DNA of 45,803 bases. It comes from Ferruginibacter sp. (lineage in GTDB: Bacteria; Bacteroidota; Bacteroidia; Chitinophagales; Chitinophagaceae). Below, one piece after another: positions 38,155 through 45,803 of the stretch; positions within the stretch are counted from its first letter, which is position 1; every line of letters begins with the position of its first letter. A program made the translations under genes and the position numbers. The stretch is taken from positions 1 through 45,803 of the forward strand of contig JAHBTN010000026.1 in assembly GCA_019638575.1 (NCBI GenBank), given 5' to 3'. The notes under the pieces are model-generated. The model had not been told where the DNA came from and made no database searches. It saw only the letters and a program-made list of their open reading frames with translations.

Positions 38155-38323
38155 ATGAACCTTGCCGTTCAATTTAAACAAGTGAACAATTATTTCTACC
38201 CACGTATTATTGGTGAACTAAATGGGCAATGAAGTGCATATTCTTTTATTTGAGCATGCAAGTACATTAAAAACCGGTGATGTAAAGAATGCACTTACAA
38301 AAACCGTACTCTACAGGATTTGA
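38155..38323 (+). pseudogene. Remnant of a small cupin gene with internal deletion
   Basis: Two pieces match the two ends of small Bacteroidetes cupin proteins as I know them. Frame 1 from ATG 38155 reads MNLAVQFKQVNNYFYPRIIG and a few more residues, then stops at 38230. Immediately after, the +1 frame (38231-38323) reads EVHILLFEHASTLKTGDVKN and onward to a TGA. In intact homologues about 60 residues lie between these parts, including the His-rich metal site of the cupin barrel. Loss of that core plus a frame change marks a dead gene. It starts 9 bp after coaE. Confidence 0.75.
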
Positions 38324-38510
38324 GAAGTTGCTTAGAAAATTTTTATATTATCCGGTTCAGCATTTTCATTTTGATTGGTATTTGATTACCATTCTTTACT
38401 CATTTTAAATATGATTTTTTATGCGGCCAAACCTGGCTTGTAAAATGATTTTTAGCTTTCTTAATAAAATTCAAAGGCTCATCAAATTAAATTCATACTT
38501 TACTAAACAA
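38324..38510. other. Intergenic stretch without recognised content
   Basis: This AT-rich segment between the cupin remnant and the palindrome upstream of the kinase holds no credible reading frame and no hairpin of note. Together with the pseudogene it makes up most of the 442-bp gap between coaE and the kinase. Confidence 0.5.
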
Positions 38511-38526
38511 TACCCCTTTTGGGGAA
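38511..38526. promoter_or_regulatory. CCCC-N4-GGGG palindrome, putative response-regulator site A
   Basis: TACCCCT-TT-TGGGGAA is an inverted pair of heptamers with a 2-bp spacer. Its centre is about 55 bp upstream of the start point predicted from the promoter at 38538-38567, a normal activator position. Read on the other strand it becomes TATTCCCCAAAAGGGGTATT, nearly identical to the site at 42768-42787. Confidence 0.6.
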
Positions 38527-38537
38527 TACCCGGTTGC

Positions 38538-38567
38538 TTGAATAAAAGAAGATTGTTTCTAAATTTA
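38538..38567 (+). promoter_or_regulatory. Promoter of the sensor kinase operon
   Basis: TTG (38538-38540), 19 nt, then TAAATTTA (38560-38567): one mismatch (final A for G) to the TTG-N19-TAnnTTTG consensus. It is 20 bp upstream of the kinase ATG. The weak -7 element fits a promoter that needs an activator. Confidence 0.6.
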
Positions 38568-38587
38568 TCCTCAAAGCCAACTGCCTG

Positions 38588-41500
38588 ATGTATAAATATT
38601 GTAAATACCTGTTGCTGCTTATGATGATACAGGCTTGCAGGCTACATGAAAAAGAGCAGGCGCAGGATTTACCGGCATTATACCCGGCGCCTTTTTCAGT
38701 ACAGCTTGATACGGTAAAAGGTTATGCTGTAAACCCCTTCAGCGGCGATAGCATAAAGCCGTTAATAAACCAGGCAGGCATCACCATACAAACCGGCGCC
38801 CATGTGCCATTTACCGGTGTTGTAAAAAATGGGGAGAATATTTTGCCCAAAAAAATAATCAACCCCGGTTTTAATACAAAGCAAATAATACCCGGCAATG
38901 TTTTGCCTTTAACCGGCAACCCATTGATAACAGTGATAGATTCGGCAAGCCTTAAAAAGGTAAAACCTGGCGCTGGCGATGCAGAGTATAAAATAAGCAG
39001 CACCATACAAAGCGCTGTGCCTGTGCCGGCCATATTTAAAAAAATGCCGTACAGTCAACCACAACCAGTTCGTGCTTCACCCATGCGATACAAGGATGAA
39101 GCCATTGCCAATATTCAATACCTGGATGTGCAGCAGGGATTGAGTTTTCCGTTTGTATATGCCTTGTTAGAAGATAAAAGGGGTGATCTGTGGTTTGGGA
39201 TGGATGGAACCGGCATCAGTAAATACAATGGCGTAGAGCTTATACATTATACCAGCAAGAACGGGCTGATTGGTAATACGGTGAACAGGATTATGGAAAG
39301 CAGTAAAGGCGAATTATGGATTGCCACCCGTGAAGGTGTATCCGTTTTTGATGGAAAGAACTTTAATAATATTGACCTGTTCCCCGGGTTAAATGAAAAA
39401 TCCATCAATTCTATAACAGAAGACAAGTGGGGAAATATGTGGATGGGTACCATGCATGGGCTGGTGAAATTTGATGGAAAAAATATCATTTACTATACTA
39501 CCAAAGAAGGGTTGCCCGGTAATTTAGTTTTGTCGTGCATTGATGATTACAAAGGAAGGATATGGATTGGCACCAATAACGGGCTTGCTTTATTCAACGG
39601 AAATGAATTCATCCATTTTACCCAAAAAGACGGCTTGCCCAATAATTATGTTTTTGCTTTGATGGAAGACAGCAAACATAATATCTGGATAAGCAATGGA
39701 TATGGCATTACAGAAAAATGGGGGCTTACCATGTATGATGGCAGATCCTTTACTTCGTATGATAAAGAAAATGGAATCTCCAGTAATCATATCTGGAGCA
39801 TGATGGAAGACAGGAGTGGAAATATTTGGTTGGGTACCTCCCTGGGAGGCCTTAATAAATTTGATGGGAAAAATTTTACACACTATACCCTGGCTGAGGG
39901 AATCACCAATAATAAAGTAAGGCAAATCATACAGGACAAAACAGGTAGCATTTGGTTTGCCACCGATGGTGGCGGTGTAAATAAATTAAATACCGAAAGT
40001 TTCAGCACATTGGCAGGCAACAAAGTCATCATCAATAACAGGGTGCGGCCCATCGTTAAAGATAAGAATGGCAATACCTGGTTTGGTACCGAAGGGGCTG
40101 GCATAGGAAAATATGATGCTTACGCCTCTTTGGGTTATAACACTGGTTTCGATTATTATACCTGGGATAATTTAAAAATTCTTGAAGGCCAGCGTGCTTT
40201 ATATGCCGACCGGCAGGGAAATATTTGGATTGGCACAACAGGAAACGGCTTGTATAAATATGATGGTAACAATGTATGGCAGTTTACAGAGAAAGATGGC
40301 TTATCAAGCATGTCAATCTATTCCATACTACAGGATAATGGCGGCGACCTTTGGCTGGGTACAAAAGAAAATGGTATTAGCCGGTATAATGGCAAAACAT
40401 TTACTCACTACAATGAAAAACAAGGCCTGCCTGCTAAAACGATCTTTGCAATACTGGAAGACAGGAAGAAAAACCTGTGGTTCTGTACAGATGACGCAGG
40501 AATATTCATGTATGATGGAACAAACATCACTGTTTATACAGAGAAAGAAGGGTTGTTCAGTAAAAGCATTACATCCATAATTGAAGATGAAGATGGCAGC
40601 CTTTGGTTGGGCACACAGGGCGCAGGTGTGTGCAGGTTTGATGGGAAACAATTCACCTACTATTCCGAAAAACAGGGATTGAGCAATAATAATATATGGT
40701 CGCTAATTAAAGATTCATCGGGGCATATATGGGCCGGTACCGATAAAGGGTTGAATTGTTTTACAAAAACAGGCGACCGTTTTGTTATTTATAATTATGG
40801 GCTGCAGGATGGATTAAAGGCGCTGGACTTTAACCTCAATGGCGCCTGTATCGATAATAACAATCACTTATGGTGGAGTACAGGAAAAAATATCCTCATT
40901 AAAAACCTGCATGATACCATGCCTGTTGAACATACAAGCCCGGTTAAGCTGGATTATATAGAAATTAATGAGCGCTATTATGATTTCCGTAACCTGCCCG
41001 ATAGCATGAAGAAAAAAATAAGGCTGGATGCTGTGCTGCCTTTCAGCAATTGCCCTCAAAACTTAACACTCACGTACGACCAGGATTTCCTGCGGTTTCA
41101 TTTTTATGTAACCGACTGGCAGACGCCCGATAAAATAAAATACAGTTACCGTATGCAGGGACTTAAAGAAACATGGAGCAGGCCTGCATCAACTCCTGTT
41201 GCCGATTACCGTAATTTAAGTTATGGCGATTATACATTTGAAGTAAGGGCCATTGGTCCATCGCAGGTTTGGAGCAAACCGTTTGCTTATAGTTTCACCA
41301 TACTTCCGGCATGGTGGCAAAGCTGGTGGTTTAAAACATTGATGGTAATTGCCGGTTTGGTAACCATATTTTTTATTGTTTTGTTCATTTACAACTACCA
41401 GTTGCGCAAACAAAAAACCGCATTGGAAAAACAACTGGCAGTACAATATGAACGGCAGCGTATTTCTTCCGAGATGCATGACGATATTGGCGCCGGGCTT

Positions 41501-42049
41501 TCGGGGATAAGGCTGCTGACCGAACTGACAAAGAAAAAAATAAAAGATGAGCAAACGGTGGAAGATGTAGAAAAGATTTACCAGTCCGTAGGCGATATAT
41601 CTGCTAAAATGAAAGAAGTGATATGGAGCCTGAATACCGACAATGATACATTGGTCAGCCTGCTCACTTATCTTCAAACACAGGCAAGGGCTTGGTTAGA
41701 GCATTTTCCCTGCCAGTTACAAATCATCGCCCCCCAATCAATACCAGAAATAAATATTAATGGAGAGGCCAGGAGAAATATTTTCTTATTGGTAAAAGAG
41801 GCGGTGCATAATATTATAAAACATTCGGGTGCCGATAAAGTGGTGATTGATATGCGGTGCAATAATGATCAATTGCTGTTGTCCGTGTCGGATAATGGCA
41901 AAGGTTTGCCTACGGAAGAAATAAATGGTACGGGCAACGGGATGAAGAATATGAAACAACGCATTGGCAAACTGCAGGGCAGGCTTGATATTAAAAACAG
42001 CAACGGGCTTACGCTGACATTTGAAATACCATTAAAACCAGTTACATGA
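38588..42049 (+). CDS. Two-component sensor histidine kinase with double seven-bladed propeller
   Basis: The 1153-residue protein starts with a lipobox-like signal (LLMMIQAC). A linker of about 150 residues follows, then 14 Reg_prop repeats (about 190-760) of the type WLGTxxxGxxxFDG with FTxYTxxxGLxxN between them, enough for two seven-bladed propellers. A Y_Y_Y domain (about 800-900) precedes one transmembrane helix (about 916-936). The cytoplasmic part is a NarX/DesK-type kinase: His964 in SSEMHDDIGAGLSG, Asn1075 in KEAVHNIIKHSG, and GNGMKNMKQRIG. Unlike hybrid systems in Bacteroidetes, the receiver is a separate protein; the kinase stop overlaps the response-regulator start by 4 bp. The ligand is unknown. 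A lipid anchor together with a transmembrane helix would be odd, so the signal may be an ordinary one. Confidence 0.93.
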   Translation: MYKYCKYLLLLMMIQACRLHEKEQAQDLPALYPAPFSVQLDTVKGYAVNPFSGDSIKPLINQAGITIQTGAHVPFTGVVKNGENILPKKIINPGFNTKQIIPGNVLPLTGNPLITVIDSASLKKVKPGAGDAEYKISSTIQSAVPVPAIFKKMPYSQPQPVRASPMRYKDEAIANIQYLDVQQGLSFPFVYALLEDKRGDLWFGMDGTGISKYNGVELIHYTSKNGLIGNTVNRIMESSKGELWIATREGVSVFDGKNFNNIDLFPGLNEKSINSITEDKWGNMWMGTMHGLVKFDGKNIIYYTTKEGLPGNLVLSCIDDYKGRIWIGTNNGLALFNGNEFIHFTQKDGLPNNYVFALMEDSKHNIWISNGYGITEKWGLTMYDGRSFTSYDKENGISSNHIWSMMEDRSGNIWLGTSLGGLNKFDGKNFTHYTLAEGITNNKVRQIIQDKTGSIWFATDGGGVNKLNTESFSTLAGNKVIINNRVRPIVKDKNGNTWFGTEGAGIGKYDAYASLGYNTGFDYYTWDNLKILEGQRALYADRQGNIWIGTTGNGLYKYDGNNVWQFTEKDGLSSMSIYSILQDNGGDLWLGTKENGISRYNGKTFTHYNEKQGLPAKTIFAILEDRKKNLWFCTDDAGIFMYDGTNITVYTEKEGLFSKSITSIIEDEDGSLWLGTQGAGVCRFDGKQFTYYSEKQGLSNNNIWSLIKDSSGHIWAGTDKGLNCFTKTGDRFVIYNYGLQDGLKALDFNLNGACIDNNNHLWWSTGKNILIKNLHDTMPVEHTSPVKLDYIEINERYYDFRNLPDSMKKKIRLDAVLPFSNCPQNLTLTYDQDFLRFHFYVTDWQTPDKIKYSYRMQGLKETWSRPASTPVADYRNLSYGDYTFEVRAIGPSQVWSKPFAYSFTILPAWWQSWWFKTLMVIAGLVTIFFIVLFIYNYQLRKQKTALEKQLAVQYERQRISSEMHDDIGAGLSGIRLLTELTKKKIKDEQTVEDVEKIYQSVGDISAKMKEVIWSLNTDNDTLVSLLTYLQTQARAWLEHFPCQLQIIAPQSIPEININGEARRNIFLLVKEAVHNIIKHSGADKVVIDMRCNNDQLLLSVSDNGKGLPTEEINGTGNGMKNMKQRIGKLQGRLDIKNSNGLTLTFEIPLKPVT

Positions 42050-42669
42050 TTACCATATCGATAGTTGAAGACAACGAACAGTTTCGCACAGGGCTTGAGG
42101 CCATTATCAAAAGCGAAAATGATTTTTTTCTTGCAGGCTCTTATTCAAGCGCCGAAAAAGCACAGGCCGATCTTCCGCTCAATCCGCCTGATATTGTTAT
42201 TGCCGATATAAGCCTGCCGGGCATGAGAGGAACCGAATTAATTGTACGGATGAAGAATAGTTTGCCACAAACGCAGTTTATGGTTTGCAGCATTCATGAT
42301 GATAATGACACCATTTTTGAAGCGCTCAAATGCGGTGCATCAGGTTATATCCTGAAAGATCCTGTTACAGCATCGGAGATTTGCAAAGCCATCAGGAATA
42401 TGTATAACGGCGGTTCGCCCATGAGCCCCTTCATTGCCCGTAAAGTGATAAGCAGTTTCCAGAAACCGGCTTTTAATGATGAAAACCTGTTGCTTAGCAC
42501 CCGTGAAAAAGAAGTGCTTGAACTATTGGCCAAAGGTTTGCTGTATAAAGAAATTGCAGAAAAACTGGGGGTAACACACGAAACAGTAAAAAAACACCTG
42601 AAGAATATTTATCAAAAATTGCATGTGCAGAACAAGATTGAAGCACTGAATAAATACAAATTGCTGTAA
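42046..42669 (+). CDS. NarL/LuxR-family response regulator
   Basis: The 207-residue protein has a receiver domain (about 1-120) with the acidic pair Glu8-Asp9, phospho-acceptor Asp54 in IADISLPGMRG, and Lys in GYILKDP. A LuxR-type helix-turn-helix follows (about 143-207): LSTREKEVLELLAKGLLYKE and VTHETVKKHLKNIYQKLHV. The ATGA overlap with the kinase gene indicates translational coupling. Regulators of this class bind inverted heptamers as dimers, which is the layout of the two palindromes flanking this pair, so autoregulation and control of the downstream secreted protein are plausible. Confidence 0.95.
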   Translation: MITISIVEDNEQFRTGLEAIIKSENDFFLAGSYSSAEKAQADLPLNPPDIVIADISLPGMRGTELIVRMKNSLPQTQFMVCSIHDDNDTIFEALKCGASGYILKDPVTASEICKAIRNMYNGGSPMSPFIARKVISSFQKPAFNDENLLLSTREKEVLELLAKGLLYKEIAEKLGVTHETVKKHLKNIYQKLHVQNKIEALNKYKLL

Positions 42670-42767
42670 CTATACTTACTTATTTTTTTTGATGTTGGAT
42701 AAATACTAAAATTTTCCTCGCCTAAAAACAGGCAATCTCCATTTAAAAAACCGGCTGTAAAAAAGTT

Positions 42768-42787
42768 TATTCCCCGAAAGGGGAATT
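42768..42787. promoter_or_regulatory. CCCC-N4-GGGG palindrome, putative response-regulator site B
   Basis: ATTCCCC-GAAA-GGGGAAT (42769-42786) is a perfect 7-bp inverted repeat, also readable as TTCCCCG-AA-AGGGGAA. It lies in the 296-bp gap between the response regulator and the secreted protein, 179 bp before the latter's ATG. A TTG at 42803-42805 is a possible -33 element, but the -7 (TATATGAA) is poor. The rest of the gap holds a small GCCT/AGGC hairpin (42720-42733) and no clear gene. Confidence 0.6.
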
Positions 42788-42965
42788 GATTTAATAACCT
42801 GTTTGGTTCACTTTTACTTAACATATATGAAATGGTGTTTTCTCCTTTTTTTTCCCGTGTATCCACCCTTTTAAACCTCAAACGTTTACCGTTTCTTGCA
42901 AGAGTTCCTTTCCCTTGTTAAACTGATTTTTTCAAACAGTCATATAAAACCTAAATCATCAAAAA

Positions 42966-45803
42966 ATGAAAAAGCTGATTAGTTTACTGTTATTAACAGG
43001 CACACTGGGCGTGGTTGCACAAAACCCACAAATGCTAAAAGATGTTTTTCCGGGAAATAATAGCGGAACCATCCAACAGATAATTAAAACAAGTAATTAC
43101 ACCTTCTTTAATGAAGATGATGATGATGCTGACGTATATCCCAGCCTGTTCAGGACAGATGGTACGACAGCGGGCACCATCAAGCTCGACCTTACCTACC
43201 CCGGTTTTAATAACAGCAAAGCAACCATGCTGGCCAAACTGGGCGACAAGGTTGTTTTTACCGGCGACAACTTTGCGCCCAATAATAGTGTGATATGGGT
43301 TAGCGATGGTACACAGGCAGGCACCATCCCGCTGGAACAATTCAATCCCACAGCAACAGCAGGTGGAGGCCCAGTTTATCAATTAGAACCAATGAATGGA
43401 TATGTTTATTATACTGTTGTTGCCAACAACAACAAACTGCAATTAAGAAGAACCGATGGAACGGCGGCAGGCACTTCGCTTGTATATGAATTTAATGAGT
43501 ATGCAGGTGTTGCGCCGGTTGGCGCATTAATGCGCAATGTTAACGGCATGCTGTATTTTTTACTGTACGACCAATGGGGTTCGGGATATGATGCCATCTG
43601 GCGCAGTGATGGTACTGCTGCAGGCACTTTCCTACTCCGGGATCTTGGCACCGAATATTTCGGTATGGGTTACTTTATGGGTGCCGGTAGCAAAGTTTGT
43701 TTCATGGTAGGCAAATCAGCCAACAACAACTCGGTTTTATTTGTTACCGATGGAACAGCAGCAGGAACCGTTCCGATGTACGAGTTCAACAGTGTTTTTA
43801 ACACTAACATCTACCCTGCTTTTACAAACATTGGTACTACTTTATACTTTGCAGCAAACGATGGTGTGAATGGTAAAGAATTATGGAAGACGGATGGCAC
43901 AGCGGCTGGTACCCTGTTGGCCGCTGATATTATACCCGGGTCCGGTAGCTCTAATCCGGTTTATTTGACCGCATTGAATAATACCCTTTATTTCAATGCC
44001 TTTACACCGGCCAACGGAAGTGAGCTTTGGAAGTTTGACGGATCAGTCGCATCCCTGGTAAAAGACATAAACCCGGGAAGCAATGGCAGTGGCCCCGCCG
44101 GTTTAACCGTTTCAGATAATACTATTATTTTTTCCTCGAATGACGGTACCAATGGCGGAGAACTTTGGATAACAGATGGAACCGCTGATAATACAGTGAT
44201 GGTGGCTGATATTAACCCGGGCGCAGGCAATTCTGTTCCTAATACATTTACACCCGGCAACCCGGTTTACTTTGCGGCTACCAATGGAGTTAATGGTTTT
44301 GAAGTTTACAAACTTGATAATAACCCGGATATGCTCCCCGGGCCTCATCGTTTTTATGTGAATGATAATAGCATTGCCGGCGATGTGTTCACGTTGGCAG
44401 TTGGTAACAACGGCAATAATGGCTCAAAAACTTATCCATTTGCAACAATAGAATATGCGCTGACACAAGTACAGGCTGACGATACCATCTTTGTGGATGC
44501 AGGAACTTATGCCACAACTGATCTTAATATTACAAAAGAAATTACCATCCTGGGAACAAACTATCTTATTTCACCTAATAATCCAACAAATAAGTTAGTT
44601 GCGAATACTGCTATAAATCCCGAATCAATAATTACCGGTTCTACATTTACAATAGGTAGTAATAACATAACCCTCTCGGGCCTTACTTTCAGCCCGGGCA
44701 ATAAAACATCCCTTTTGCTTTCGAATACTGGTTACGGAAATTTCAAATACAATAATAACAGGCTTATAATAAATTCATCCAATAACCTGGTACTAACAGG
44801 ACAGGCTGTAGTAAGCCCTGATGTTCCTATTGCTTCAGGCTTTAATTTTTCTAACAACCGTTTTGAAAAATTAAATACAAGCGGCGGTACCACACTTCTT
44901 CTTAACTATCTTAATAATGTTACAATAAGCAATAATGCATTTGTTGTTACTGGCACAACAGTAAGAACGCAGACCACAGCCGCTATTGGTCAATCAGGTA
45001 TTGTTCACAACCTTACCTTTTCAGATAATGTTGTAGATAAAGCCAATTACAATCTTTTTACTTATAAACTTCGAGATGCACAGATAATACAGAATAAATT
45101 TTATAGTGCTCTTAACGGATTCCTGTTACAAAGTTTAATTCCGGAATCGTCGAATATTACCATTTCAGAAAATCTTTTTGAAAGAACAATGCCTATTGAT
45201 ATTTTTAGATACTTGAGAGATGATGGAAATGCAGCTGGAAGTTCAAACACAGTTAAAATTGAAAACAATATTTTTAATGCAGATGCAACTGGAAATACGG
45301 GCTATTACACCAATATTTTAACTGTTCAAATAAGTAATACTGTAACAGACCCTTCTGTAATCATTCGTGGCAATCAAATAAATCAACATGGAAATTACAG
45401 TGGGCTGTCTGTAAATTCGTTCCCTGGAATGTCACTCTTTGGGAAACTATCTAATCTTACAATTGAAAAAAATGAACTGACTTTTAGTGGTATAAATTAT
45501 ACACTGCCCGGCCCAGGTCCAGTTCCGCAACTTGTTAACCCGGCTATATACATCAGTAGCGAAACGTCAGGAAATAATTCGTTTCCTTCAAATGCTGTTG
45601 TCAATATACTTAACAATAAAATAGTGGGTTACAAACAATCCGTTGCTTTCTATGATGCAAATTCTGTAAATCCTGCAAATCCTTATATCGGTTATGGAAA
45701 TCTGCCCATTGGAGCAACGGTAAACATTAATAACAACAGTTTCACCGGCGACTCCATTTCCATCAACAACGGAACAACAAGCCAAACGGTAAATGCAACC
45801 TGT
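42966..45803 (+). CDS. Large secreted propeller/beta-helix protein, 3' end beyond window
   Basis: The frame is open from ATG 42966 to the last base (946 codons), so the C-terminus is missing. A signal peptide (MKKLISLLLLTGTLGVVAQ) leads into about eight repeats of the ELWxTDGTxxGT type (about 60-455), e.g. RTDGTTAGT, VTDGTAAGT and ELWITDGT, which probably form a propeller. From about 479 the segment GSKTYPFATIEYALTQVQAD and VDAGTY starts a right-handed parallel beta-helix with Asn-rich turns, running to the edge. Such proteins in Bacteroidetes usually end in a type IX sorting domain. The last visible residues VNATC often precede a further module. It is the first gene after the two-component pair and may be its target. 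Confidence 0.88.
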   Translation, partial: MKKLISLLLLTGTLGVVAQNPQMLKDVFPGNNSGTIQQIIKTSNYTFFNEDDDDADVYPSLFRTDGTTAGTIKLDLTYPGFNNSKATMLAKLGDKVVFTGDNFAPNNSVIWVSDGTQAGTIPLEQFNPTATAGGGPVYQLEPMNGYVYYTVVANNNKLQLRRTDGTAAGTSLVYEFNEYAGVAPVGALMRNVNGMLYFLLYDQWGSGYDAIWRSDGTAAGTFLLRDLGTEYFGMGYFMGAGSKVCFMVGKSANNNSVLFVTDGTAAGTVPMYEFNSVFNTNIYPAFTNIGTTLYFAANDGVNGKELWKTDGTAAGTLLAADIIPGSGSSNPVYLTALNNTLYFNAFTPANGSELWKFDGSVASLVKDINPGSNGSGPAGLTVSDNTIIFSSNDGTNGGELWITDGTADNTVMVADINPGAGNSVPNTFTPGNPVYFAATNGVNGFEVYKLDNNPDMLPGPHRFYVNDNSIAGDVFTLAVGNNGNNGSKTYPFATIEYALTQVQADDTIFVDAGTYATTDLNITKEITILGTNYLISPNNPTNKLVANTAINPESIITGSTFTIGSNNITLSGLTFSPGNKTSLLLSNTGYGNFKYNNNRLIINSSNNLVLTGQAVVSPDVPIASGFNFSNNRFEKLNTSGGTTLLLNYLNNVTISNNAFVVTGTTVRTQTTAAIGQSGIVHNLTFSDNVVDKANYNLFTYKLRDAQIIQNKFYSALNGFLLQSLIPESSNITISENLFERTMPIDIFRYLRDDGNAAGSSNTVKIENNIFNADATGNTGYYTNILTVQISNTVTDPSVIIRGNQINQHGNYSGLSVNSFPGMSLFGKLSNLTIEKNELTFSGINYTLPGPGPVPQLVNPAIYISSETSGNNSFPSNAVVNILNNKIVGYKQSVAFYDANSVNPANPYIGYGNLPIGATVNINNNSFTGDSISINNGTTSQTVNATC

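Follow-up and report, generated by a model that had tools for sequence, protein, structure and literature searches.

The window analyzed here, a stretch of 45,803 nucleotides, is contig C19 of the Ferruginibacter sp. genome G000 (3,408,847 bases, 38 contigs). It carries a sensor histidine kinase gene and a NarL-type response regulator gene with one copy of a matched palindrome on either side. We consider it likely, from sequence comparisons, that the kinase, the regulator, and the palindromes form a self-contained NarL-type activator circuit, with feedback by a stand-alone helix-turn-helix (HTH) protein of 65 amino acids that is encoded on contig C5 and is called mini-HTH below. The elements of the window locus are as follows.

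38510..38527, palindrome 1, ATACCCCTTTTGGGGAAT, 5' of the kinase gene, identical in the relative G716
38538..38540, plus strand, candidate -33 TTG of the kinase-regulator promoter, kept in G716
38560..38567, plus strand, candidate -7 box TAAATTTA, 19 nt after the TTG at 38538-38540
38588..42049, plus strand, sensor histidine kinase, 1153 amino acids, with Reg_prop propeller, Y_Y_Y, HisKA_3, and HATPase_c domains
42046..42669, plus strand, NarL-type response regulator, 207 amino acids, with Response_reg and GerE domains
42769..42786, palindrome 2, ATTCCCCGAAAGGGGAAT, 5' of the secreted-protein gene
42786..42788, plus strand, candidate -33 TTG, overlapping the end of palindrome 2
42809..42816, plus strand, candidate -7 box CACTTTTA, 20 nt after the TTG
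42966..45803, plus strand, 5' part of a giant secreted protein gene, 946 codons, open to the contig end

The 207-amino-acid protein is a NarL/FixJ-type response regulator: it has a receiver domain (PF00072, E value of 1.2e-20) followed by a GerE HTH domain (PF00196, E value of 8.2e-17), and it adjoins a HisKA_3 kinase. The kinase gene (HisKA_3, E value of 3.2e-9; HATPase_c, E value of 1.1e-12) overlaps the regulator gene by 4 bp. No Pfam match was found for the window piece of the secreted protein. The G716 ortholog has SprB repeats (E value of 2.3e-51) and a Por_Secre_tail domain (E value of 3e-7) and is therefore regarded as cargo of the type IX secretion system (T9SS).

The first palindrome reads TATTCCCCAAAAGGGGTATT on the minus strand (38528-38509) and the second reads TATTCCCCGAAAGGGGAATT on the plus strand (42768-42787). 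An earlier sequence-only reading had noticed the pair and proposed that the response regulator binds both copies, driving its own operon and the surface protein gene. The match is real, exact, and far above the level of shuffled sequence. The reading was right about the presence of the first copy, which it gave as 38511-38526 with flanks and which spans 38509-38528, and it placed the second copy correctly, ahead of the secreted-protein gene. The 7-2-7 geometry that it described can be read in both copies (TTCCCCG-AA-AGGGGAA and TACCCCT-TT-TGGGGAA), and the layout of inverted heptamers with 2-bp spacing abutting the -35/-33 element is read directly from the sequence. The NarL consensus heptamer is TACYYMT. 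The 18-mer ATWCCCC-N4-GGGGWAT occurs twice in the window and in none of 400 dinucleotide shuffles of it, and at least two exact copies of CCCCNAAAGGGG were seen in 1 of 400 such shuffles. The significance is carried by exactness and flanks, because at least two copies of the 12-mer core with one mismatch allowed appeared in 11 of 100 shuffles. Beyond the two copies there is no CCCCNAAAGGGG in the window, also at one mismatch, and the statement that the 45.8 kb hold no third full copy stands.

The spacing to the promoter is constant outside the kinase-upstream copies. At all 21 non-kinase sites, the 3' end of the palindrome is the TTG, and YAnnTTTA follows exactly 20 nt on, while the same 8-mer has two matches elsewhere in the same downstream stretches. 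These sites come from nine regulator loci and one relict; 19 are intact, one has a decayed palindrome, and one lies by a decayed HTH. There is some discovery bias in this count: Ww31 was reached only via a pattern that includes the -7 box, and G569 and G472 first came up under a looser pattern in which TTTA is one base off, though the regulator search reaches both too. The remaining sites were located by palindrome or regulator alone. When the -7 box is set at -12 to -5, as it is in a passage of PMC9723704, the palindrome center falls at about -43.5, which would be a NarL-like activator position.

Relatives of the regulator were sought at an E value of ≤1e-65 in 394 sampled genomes of the family, giving 11 matches in 10 genomes, and at ≤1e-60 in 93 genomes of the genus, giving three regulators, those of the window, G716 (92% identical), and G012 (54%). 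We examined 14 regulator loci, including Ww31, which came from a DNA scan. A palindrome adjoins the regulator or its kinase at nine of them (G000, G716, G404, G221, G569, G472, G646:C449, G621, and Ww31), and at the other five (G598, G624, G646:C181, G629, and G012) no site was found near the regulator at up to three mismatches. The kinases of G598, G624, and G646:C181 are of a different type by their N-terminus. Both window sites are conserved islands in the comparison with G716. The order regulator, palindrome, mini-HTH, palindrome, secreted protein recurs in G404, G221, G569, G472, and G646:C449, and G404 has a second unit with a regulator remnant, palindrome, mini-HTH, palindrome, and then a second secreted protein. 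Together, the spacing at 21 of 21 sites and the presence at 9 of 14 loci support the view that the palindromes act like promoter elements and go with this family of regulators. G646 has two related kinase-regulator pairs (L113 and L114), presumably in tandem with the join at contig ends, and only the second pair has palindromes and a mini-HTH.

In the whole genome of the window, CCCCNAAAGGGG occurs three times, twice in the window and once at C5:2742, versus no occurrence of the reversed control. A one-mismatch copy lies at C5:2474, and the two C5 copies flank the mini-HTH gene, a stand-alone LuxR/GerE HTH gene. The composite element is found three times at zero or one mismatch, always at this locus, with no match for the reversed control; its next-best matches are six places at three mismatches. 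One-mismatch palindromes elsewhere in the genome are at C17:7550 and C33:10428. The C17 palindrome is inside a helicase-like reading frame, and we dropped it as a chance match. Contig C19 stops within the secreted-protein gene, and C5 starts within the end of such a protein. G716 is contiguous across this region, with coaE, palindrome, kinase, regulator, palindrome, and a 1748-codon frame (the SprB/T9SS protein), followed by palindrome, mini-HTH, decayed palindrome, lipoprotein remnant, and an epimerase-like gene, which is the same as on C5. By synteny with G716, C19 and C5 are probably adjacent parts of one locus. The target set thus looks confined to one locus. It does not resemble a dispersed response-regulator regulon, as the four best-fitting sites are one locus split over C19 and C5. 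At about 38158-38304, the window has a gene remnant that is cupin-like by eye and lacks its middle part; its counterpart in G716 is longer and lies between coaE and the kinase.

We scanned 84,980 species genomes for the exact composite, a set from which our own genome may have been left out and from which G221 was not returned, and obtained 12 stretches. Six of them are this module (L127, L129, L130, L133, L134, and L137). In L132 (Calditrichia) the element is directly 5' of a NarL-type regulator adjoining a propeller protein, and in L128 (Chlorobiota) it is beside a gene whose visible end is LuxR-HTH-like by eye. No LuxR gene was found in the other four composite stretches (L126, L131, L135, and L136).

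The mini-HTH on C5 (L001:2539-2736) ends just 5' of the second C5 palindrome. It consists only of PF00196 (residues 8 to 60, E value of 4.6e-18), as does a G404 copy, and its sequence is closely similar to the DNA-binding domain of the window regulator. Among solved structures, NarL chains match it best (1je8, E value of 1.5e-10), followed by GerE (1fse, E value of 1e-6). We found eight mini-HTH genes in seven genomes, and the length is 65 amino acids in all six genes whose start was read (G000, G716, G404 twice, G221, and G569). The G000 and G716 copies are 85% identical, with nonsynonymous (dN) and synonymous (dS) substitution rates of 0.076 and 0.63 (NG86, 65 codons); the dN and dS values for the same pair of genomes are 0.044 and 0.94 for the regulator and 0.126 and 0.68 for the kinase. 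Judged by these rates, the mini-HTH is a real gene under purifying selection. In G021 (L025/L066), where no regulator ortholog was found at an E value of ≤1e-60, the 20-nt spacing is kept at a site that precedes first an HTH remnant interrupted by a stop and then a gene for a secreted protein. The relict site and the decayed HTH in such a genome suggest a joint loss. In a tree of 23 short domains, the eight mini-HTHs fall into two groups with weak deep support, so that there may have been one or two origins. The inference of the sequence-only reading was partly right, and the stand-alone HTH twin sharing the sites lay outside its view.

The palindrome 5' of the kinase differs from the others in position. 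The window and G716 share a nearly unchanged block that runs from the palindrome to the kinase start, while the sequence further 5' has diverged. In this block, TTG and TAwATTTA are separated by 19 nt, and the distance from palindrome to -7 box exceeds that at the other sites by 10 bp. With TAAATTTA at -12 to -5, the palindrome center is at about -53.5, one helical turn further out than -43.5 and in agreement with the "about 55 bp" upstream of the kinase transcript start estimated before. G621 also has a palindrome copy 5' of its kinase, with one mismatch. A palindrome is thus present before 3 of the 12 kinases tested (window, G716, and G621), which are three of the nine site-bearing loci, and by this distribution the candidate kinase site is lineage-specific.

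In the circuit that we propose, the propeller-type sensor kinase (38588-42049) would phosphorylate the response regulator (42046-42669), and a dimer of the phosphorylated regulator would bind ATWCCCC-N4-GGGGWAT, an inverted repeat that merges with the -33 TTG at its 3' end. From about -43.5, the bound regulator would activate the -7 box YAnnTTTA 20 nt on. At the 42769 site it would activate the gene of the giant SprB-type T9SS surface protein, and at the 38510 site, from about -53.5, the kinase-regulator operon. Its C5 targets would be the 65-amino-acid receiver-less HTH gene and a lipoprotein gene. The mini-HTH would occupy the same sites irrespective of phosphate, because it has no receiver, and would be a feedback element, working as a damper or as a phosphate-independent lock. 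Binding by the regulator and the mini-HTH, and activation rather than repression, are what we infer from sequence comparison. A more specific idea, for which we find belief and doubt evenly balanced, is that a receiver-less twin inside the regulon and under the same operator provides phosphate-independent feedback that makes expression of the T9SS surface protein switch-like or self-limiting, and that site, mini-HTH, site, and surface gene have been copied as a cassette (tandem in G404, decayed relic in G021).

Palindromes of this kind are also found outside the module. Of the 75 palindrome-like occurrences found on either strand, with up to two mismatches, in the 41 loci fetched, 10 have a -7-like box 20 nt on and 15 have it 19 nt on. 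Seven of the ten 20-nt cases are module or relict sites, two are in G253, and one is in G629. A looser pattern matched in 92 of 394 genomes, and about half of the 30 loci taken have the box at 19 nt, a spacing that this pattern favors by design. The 19-nt class consists mostly of the promoter of an RNA-like element, and the members that were followed up are of this kind. A pattern excluding a repetitive extragenic palindromic (REP)-like repeat matched in 27 of 396 genomes, and ten loci were fetched with flanks (L057-L065 and L067). An HMM (hidden Markov model) scan found no HTH within 3 kb of the site at these loci; L057 has a weak LuxR-type match about 3.8 kb off. We dropped the view that all ten are mere background, since the two G253 sites have the box exactly 20 nt on. 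The G253 palindromes, ATACCCC-N4-GGGGTATTG, are at L057:5882 and on the minus strand of L058 near 1010, the latter preceding a small secreted-looking frame; no close relative of the window regulator was found in G253 at an E value of ≤1e-65. These cases point to a putative promoter type of wider occurrence in the family, in which the palindrome runs into the -33 TTG.

The RNA-like element lies between gldN-like and uvrC-like genes and is a candidate small RNA, about 75 nt long, with a near-invariant TTTTTCATAGGATATTGGATTTTAAAAACGGGGCTG ahead of a terminator-like hairpin and a T-run. We located it in our own genome on C38 near 113636 (L002:5637, minus strand) and at L143-L172, L070, L072, L081, L088-L091, L094, and L097. 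Of 298 genomes of the order, 39 have its 36-mer (up to three mismatches), and each of these belongs to the family of the window. The palindrome ATACCC-N6-GGGTATTG (up to two mismatches) is about 53 nt 5' of the core in 23 of the 40 copies viewed and in 13 of 30 copies located by the core alone. The element has no Rfam match at the gathering threshold, and we found no description of it in the open-licence literature searched. The REP-like repeat, CCCCTAWCCCCTAAAGGGGRATT, is found in genus relatives (L005-L027 without L007, L016, L021, and L025) and often abuts a start codon on the opposite strand. It also led us to discard a count that had suggested wide conservation of the core pattern (23 matches, reversed controls 0), as 19 of the 23 belong to the longer repeat.

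Several observations weigh against the proposed circuit. No palindrome was found before 9 of the 12 kinases (G404, G221, G472, G646 HK1 and HK2, Ww31, G598, G624, and G569); for the first eight the best match has four to six mismatches, a level matched by 12 to 99% of shuffles, and for G569 it has five. A motif copy upstream of the kinase is thus conserved in G716 and present in G621 but not general, and by eye the copy before the G621 kinase lacks an exact YAnnTTTA 20 nt on. The sites of G646:C449 have two and three mismatches to the 20-mer, the downstream site of G621 has two, and several of the five regulators without a site have near-identical recognition helices. Outside the locus, there is the one-mismatch palindrome at C33:10428, and the palindrome at C38:113636, with one mismatch to the 18-mer, precedes our own genome's copy of the RNA-like element; it fits the RNA-like gene and could be a further target. 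G253 has its two palindromes with the box at 20 nt and no regulator ortholog nearby, and the RNA-like gene found across the family has a palindrome of similar form, with the box 19 nt on. Because the layout also occurs at promoters without the window regulator, it is no proof of the regulator by itself, and the regulator as binder is deduced. What stands of the claim that the regulator drives both sites is the promoter-element role tied to the regulator family; a general kinase site and a dispersed regulon are not supported.

The same observations could be explained if the main binder were the mini-HTH or another LuxR-type protein, with the response regulator acting elsewhere or only via the mini-HTH. 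This would fit the sites flanking all eight mini-HTH genes in seven genomes, the G021 relict site by a decayed HTH with no regulator ortholog found, and the similar palindromes at promoters in genomes without the module. We nevertheless think it unlikely, as Ww31 and G621 have a site by the regulator and no mini-HTH in the stretches fetched, and the recognition-helix sequence is largely common to both proteins. Slightly less probable still is that the palindromes mainly serve as terminators or RNA hairpins where regulator and mini-HTH genes end. Their sequence can form a hairpin, CCCC-GAAA-GGGG, which would have a tetraloop. Several palindromes do lie within about 10 nt after a stop codon (G404 and G221), T is found at positions 1 to 4 after the TTG in 13 to 15 of the 21 sites, and the strand with the GAAA-type loop is in most cases the coding one. 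However, every one of the 21 has the -7 box at exactly 20 nt but not every one has the T-run; by eye it is absent at, for example, the C5 mini-HTH, second G472, second G569, Ww31, G621, and G021 sites. Moreover, window site 1 precedes a gene and is conserved along with the promoter downstream, and window site 2 is 100 bp past the regulator stop. Copies of the dispersed REP-like repeat with no regulatory role at this locus are strongly disfavored. Relatives often carry a REP-like repeat that includes WCCCCTAAAGGGG, and 19 of 23 matches have a second C-rich block just 5', but the window and C5 copies lack that block, are few in the genome, and have a fixed promoter spacing. The activator circuit with the response regulator as binder remains our preferred explanation.

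The components of this circuit are of known kinds. Passages of PMC7419079 describe the Escherichia coli ogt promoter, where a NarL site centered at -44.5 abuts the -35 element, and yeaR, where a single NarL site just 5' of the -35 element suffices. The Ferruginibacter locus resembles these in its NarL-type regulator, inverted 7-2-7 site, and position abutting the -35 element, but differs in site sequence, Bacteroidota promoter, targets at one locus, and a receiver-less twin whose gene carries the same site. LuxR proteins of a single domain have been described, for example in Actinobacteria (a passage of PMC3466318). Like these and GerE, the mini-HTH is a stand-alone PF00196 HTH with no sensory domain; unlike them, it is encoded within a two-component locus and flanked by the candidate target palindromes of the regulator. 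According to a passage of PMC4549865, NarL reduced to its output domain is a constitutive repressor of frdA and cannot activate narG, while the isolated FixJ output domain activates nifA. The mini-HTH is similar to these truncations, receiver-less HTHs that act at the sites of the parent, but it is a natural gene and not a laboratory construct. The two precedents point to opposite signs of the mini-HTH feedback. In the open-licence literature searched, we found no description of this arrangement, in which a two-component locus next to a giant T9SS protein encodes a receiver-less twin behind its own operator.

If the proposed circuit is true, it would define, for a propeller-kinase/NarL-type pair of Bacteroidota, a specific operator, the spacing of its promoter, and a nearly complete list of predicted targets. 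It is directly testable, because the distance from operator to -7 box is fixed across several genera. The natural receiver-less twin would then show how a two-component system can gain a memory or a damper through a duplicated DNA-binding domain alone, a duplication that here would serve the control of a very large secreted surface protein.

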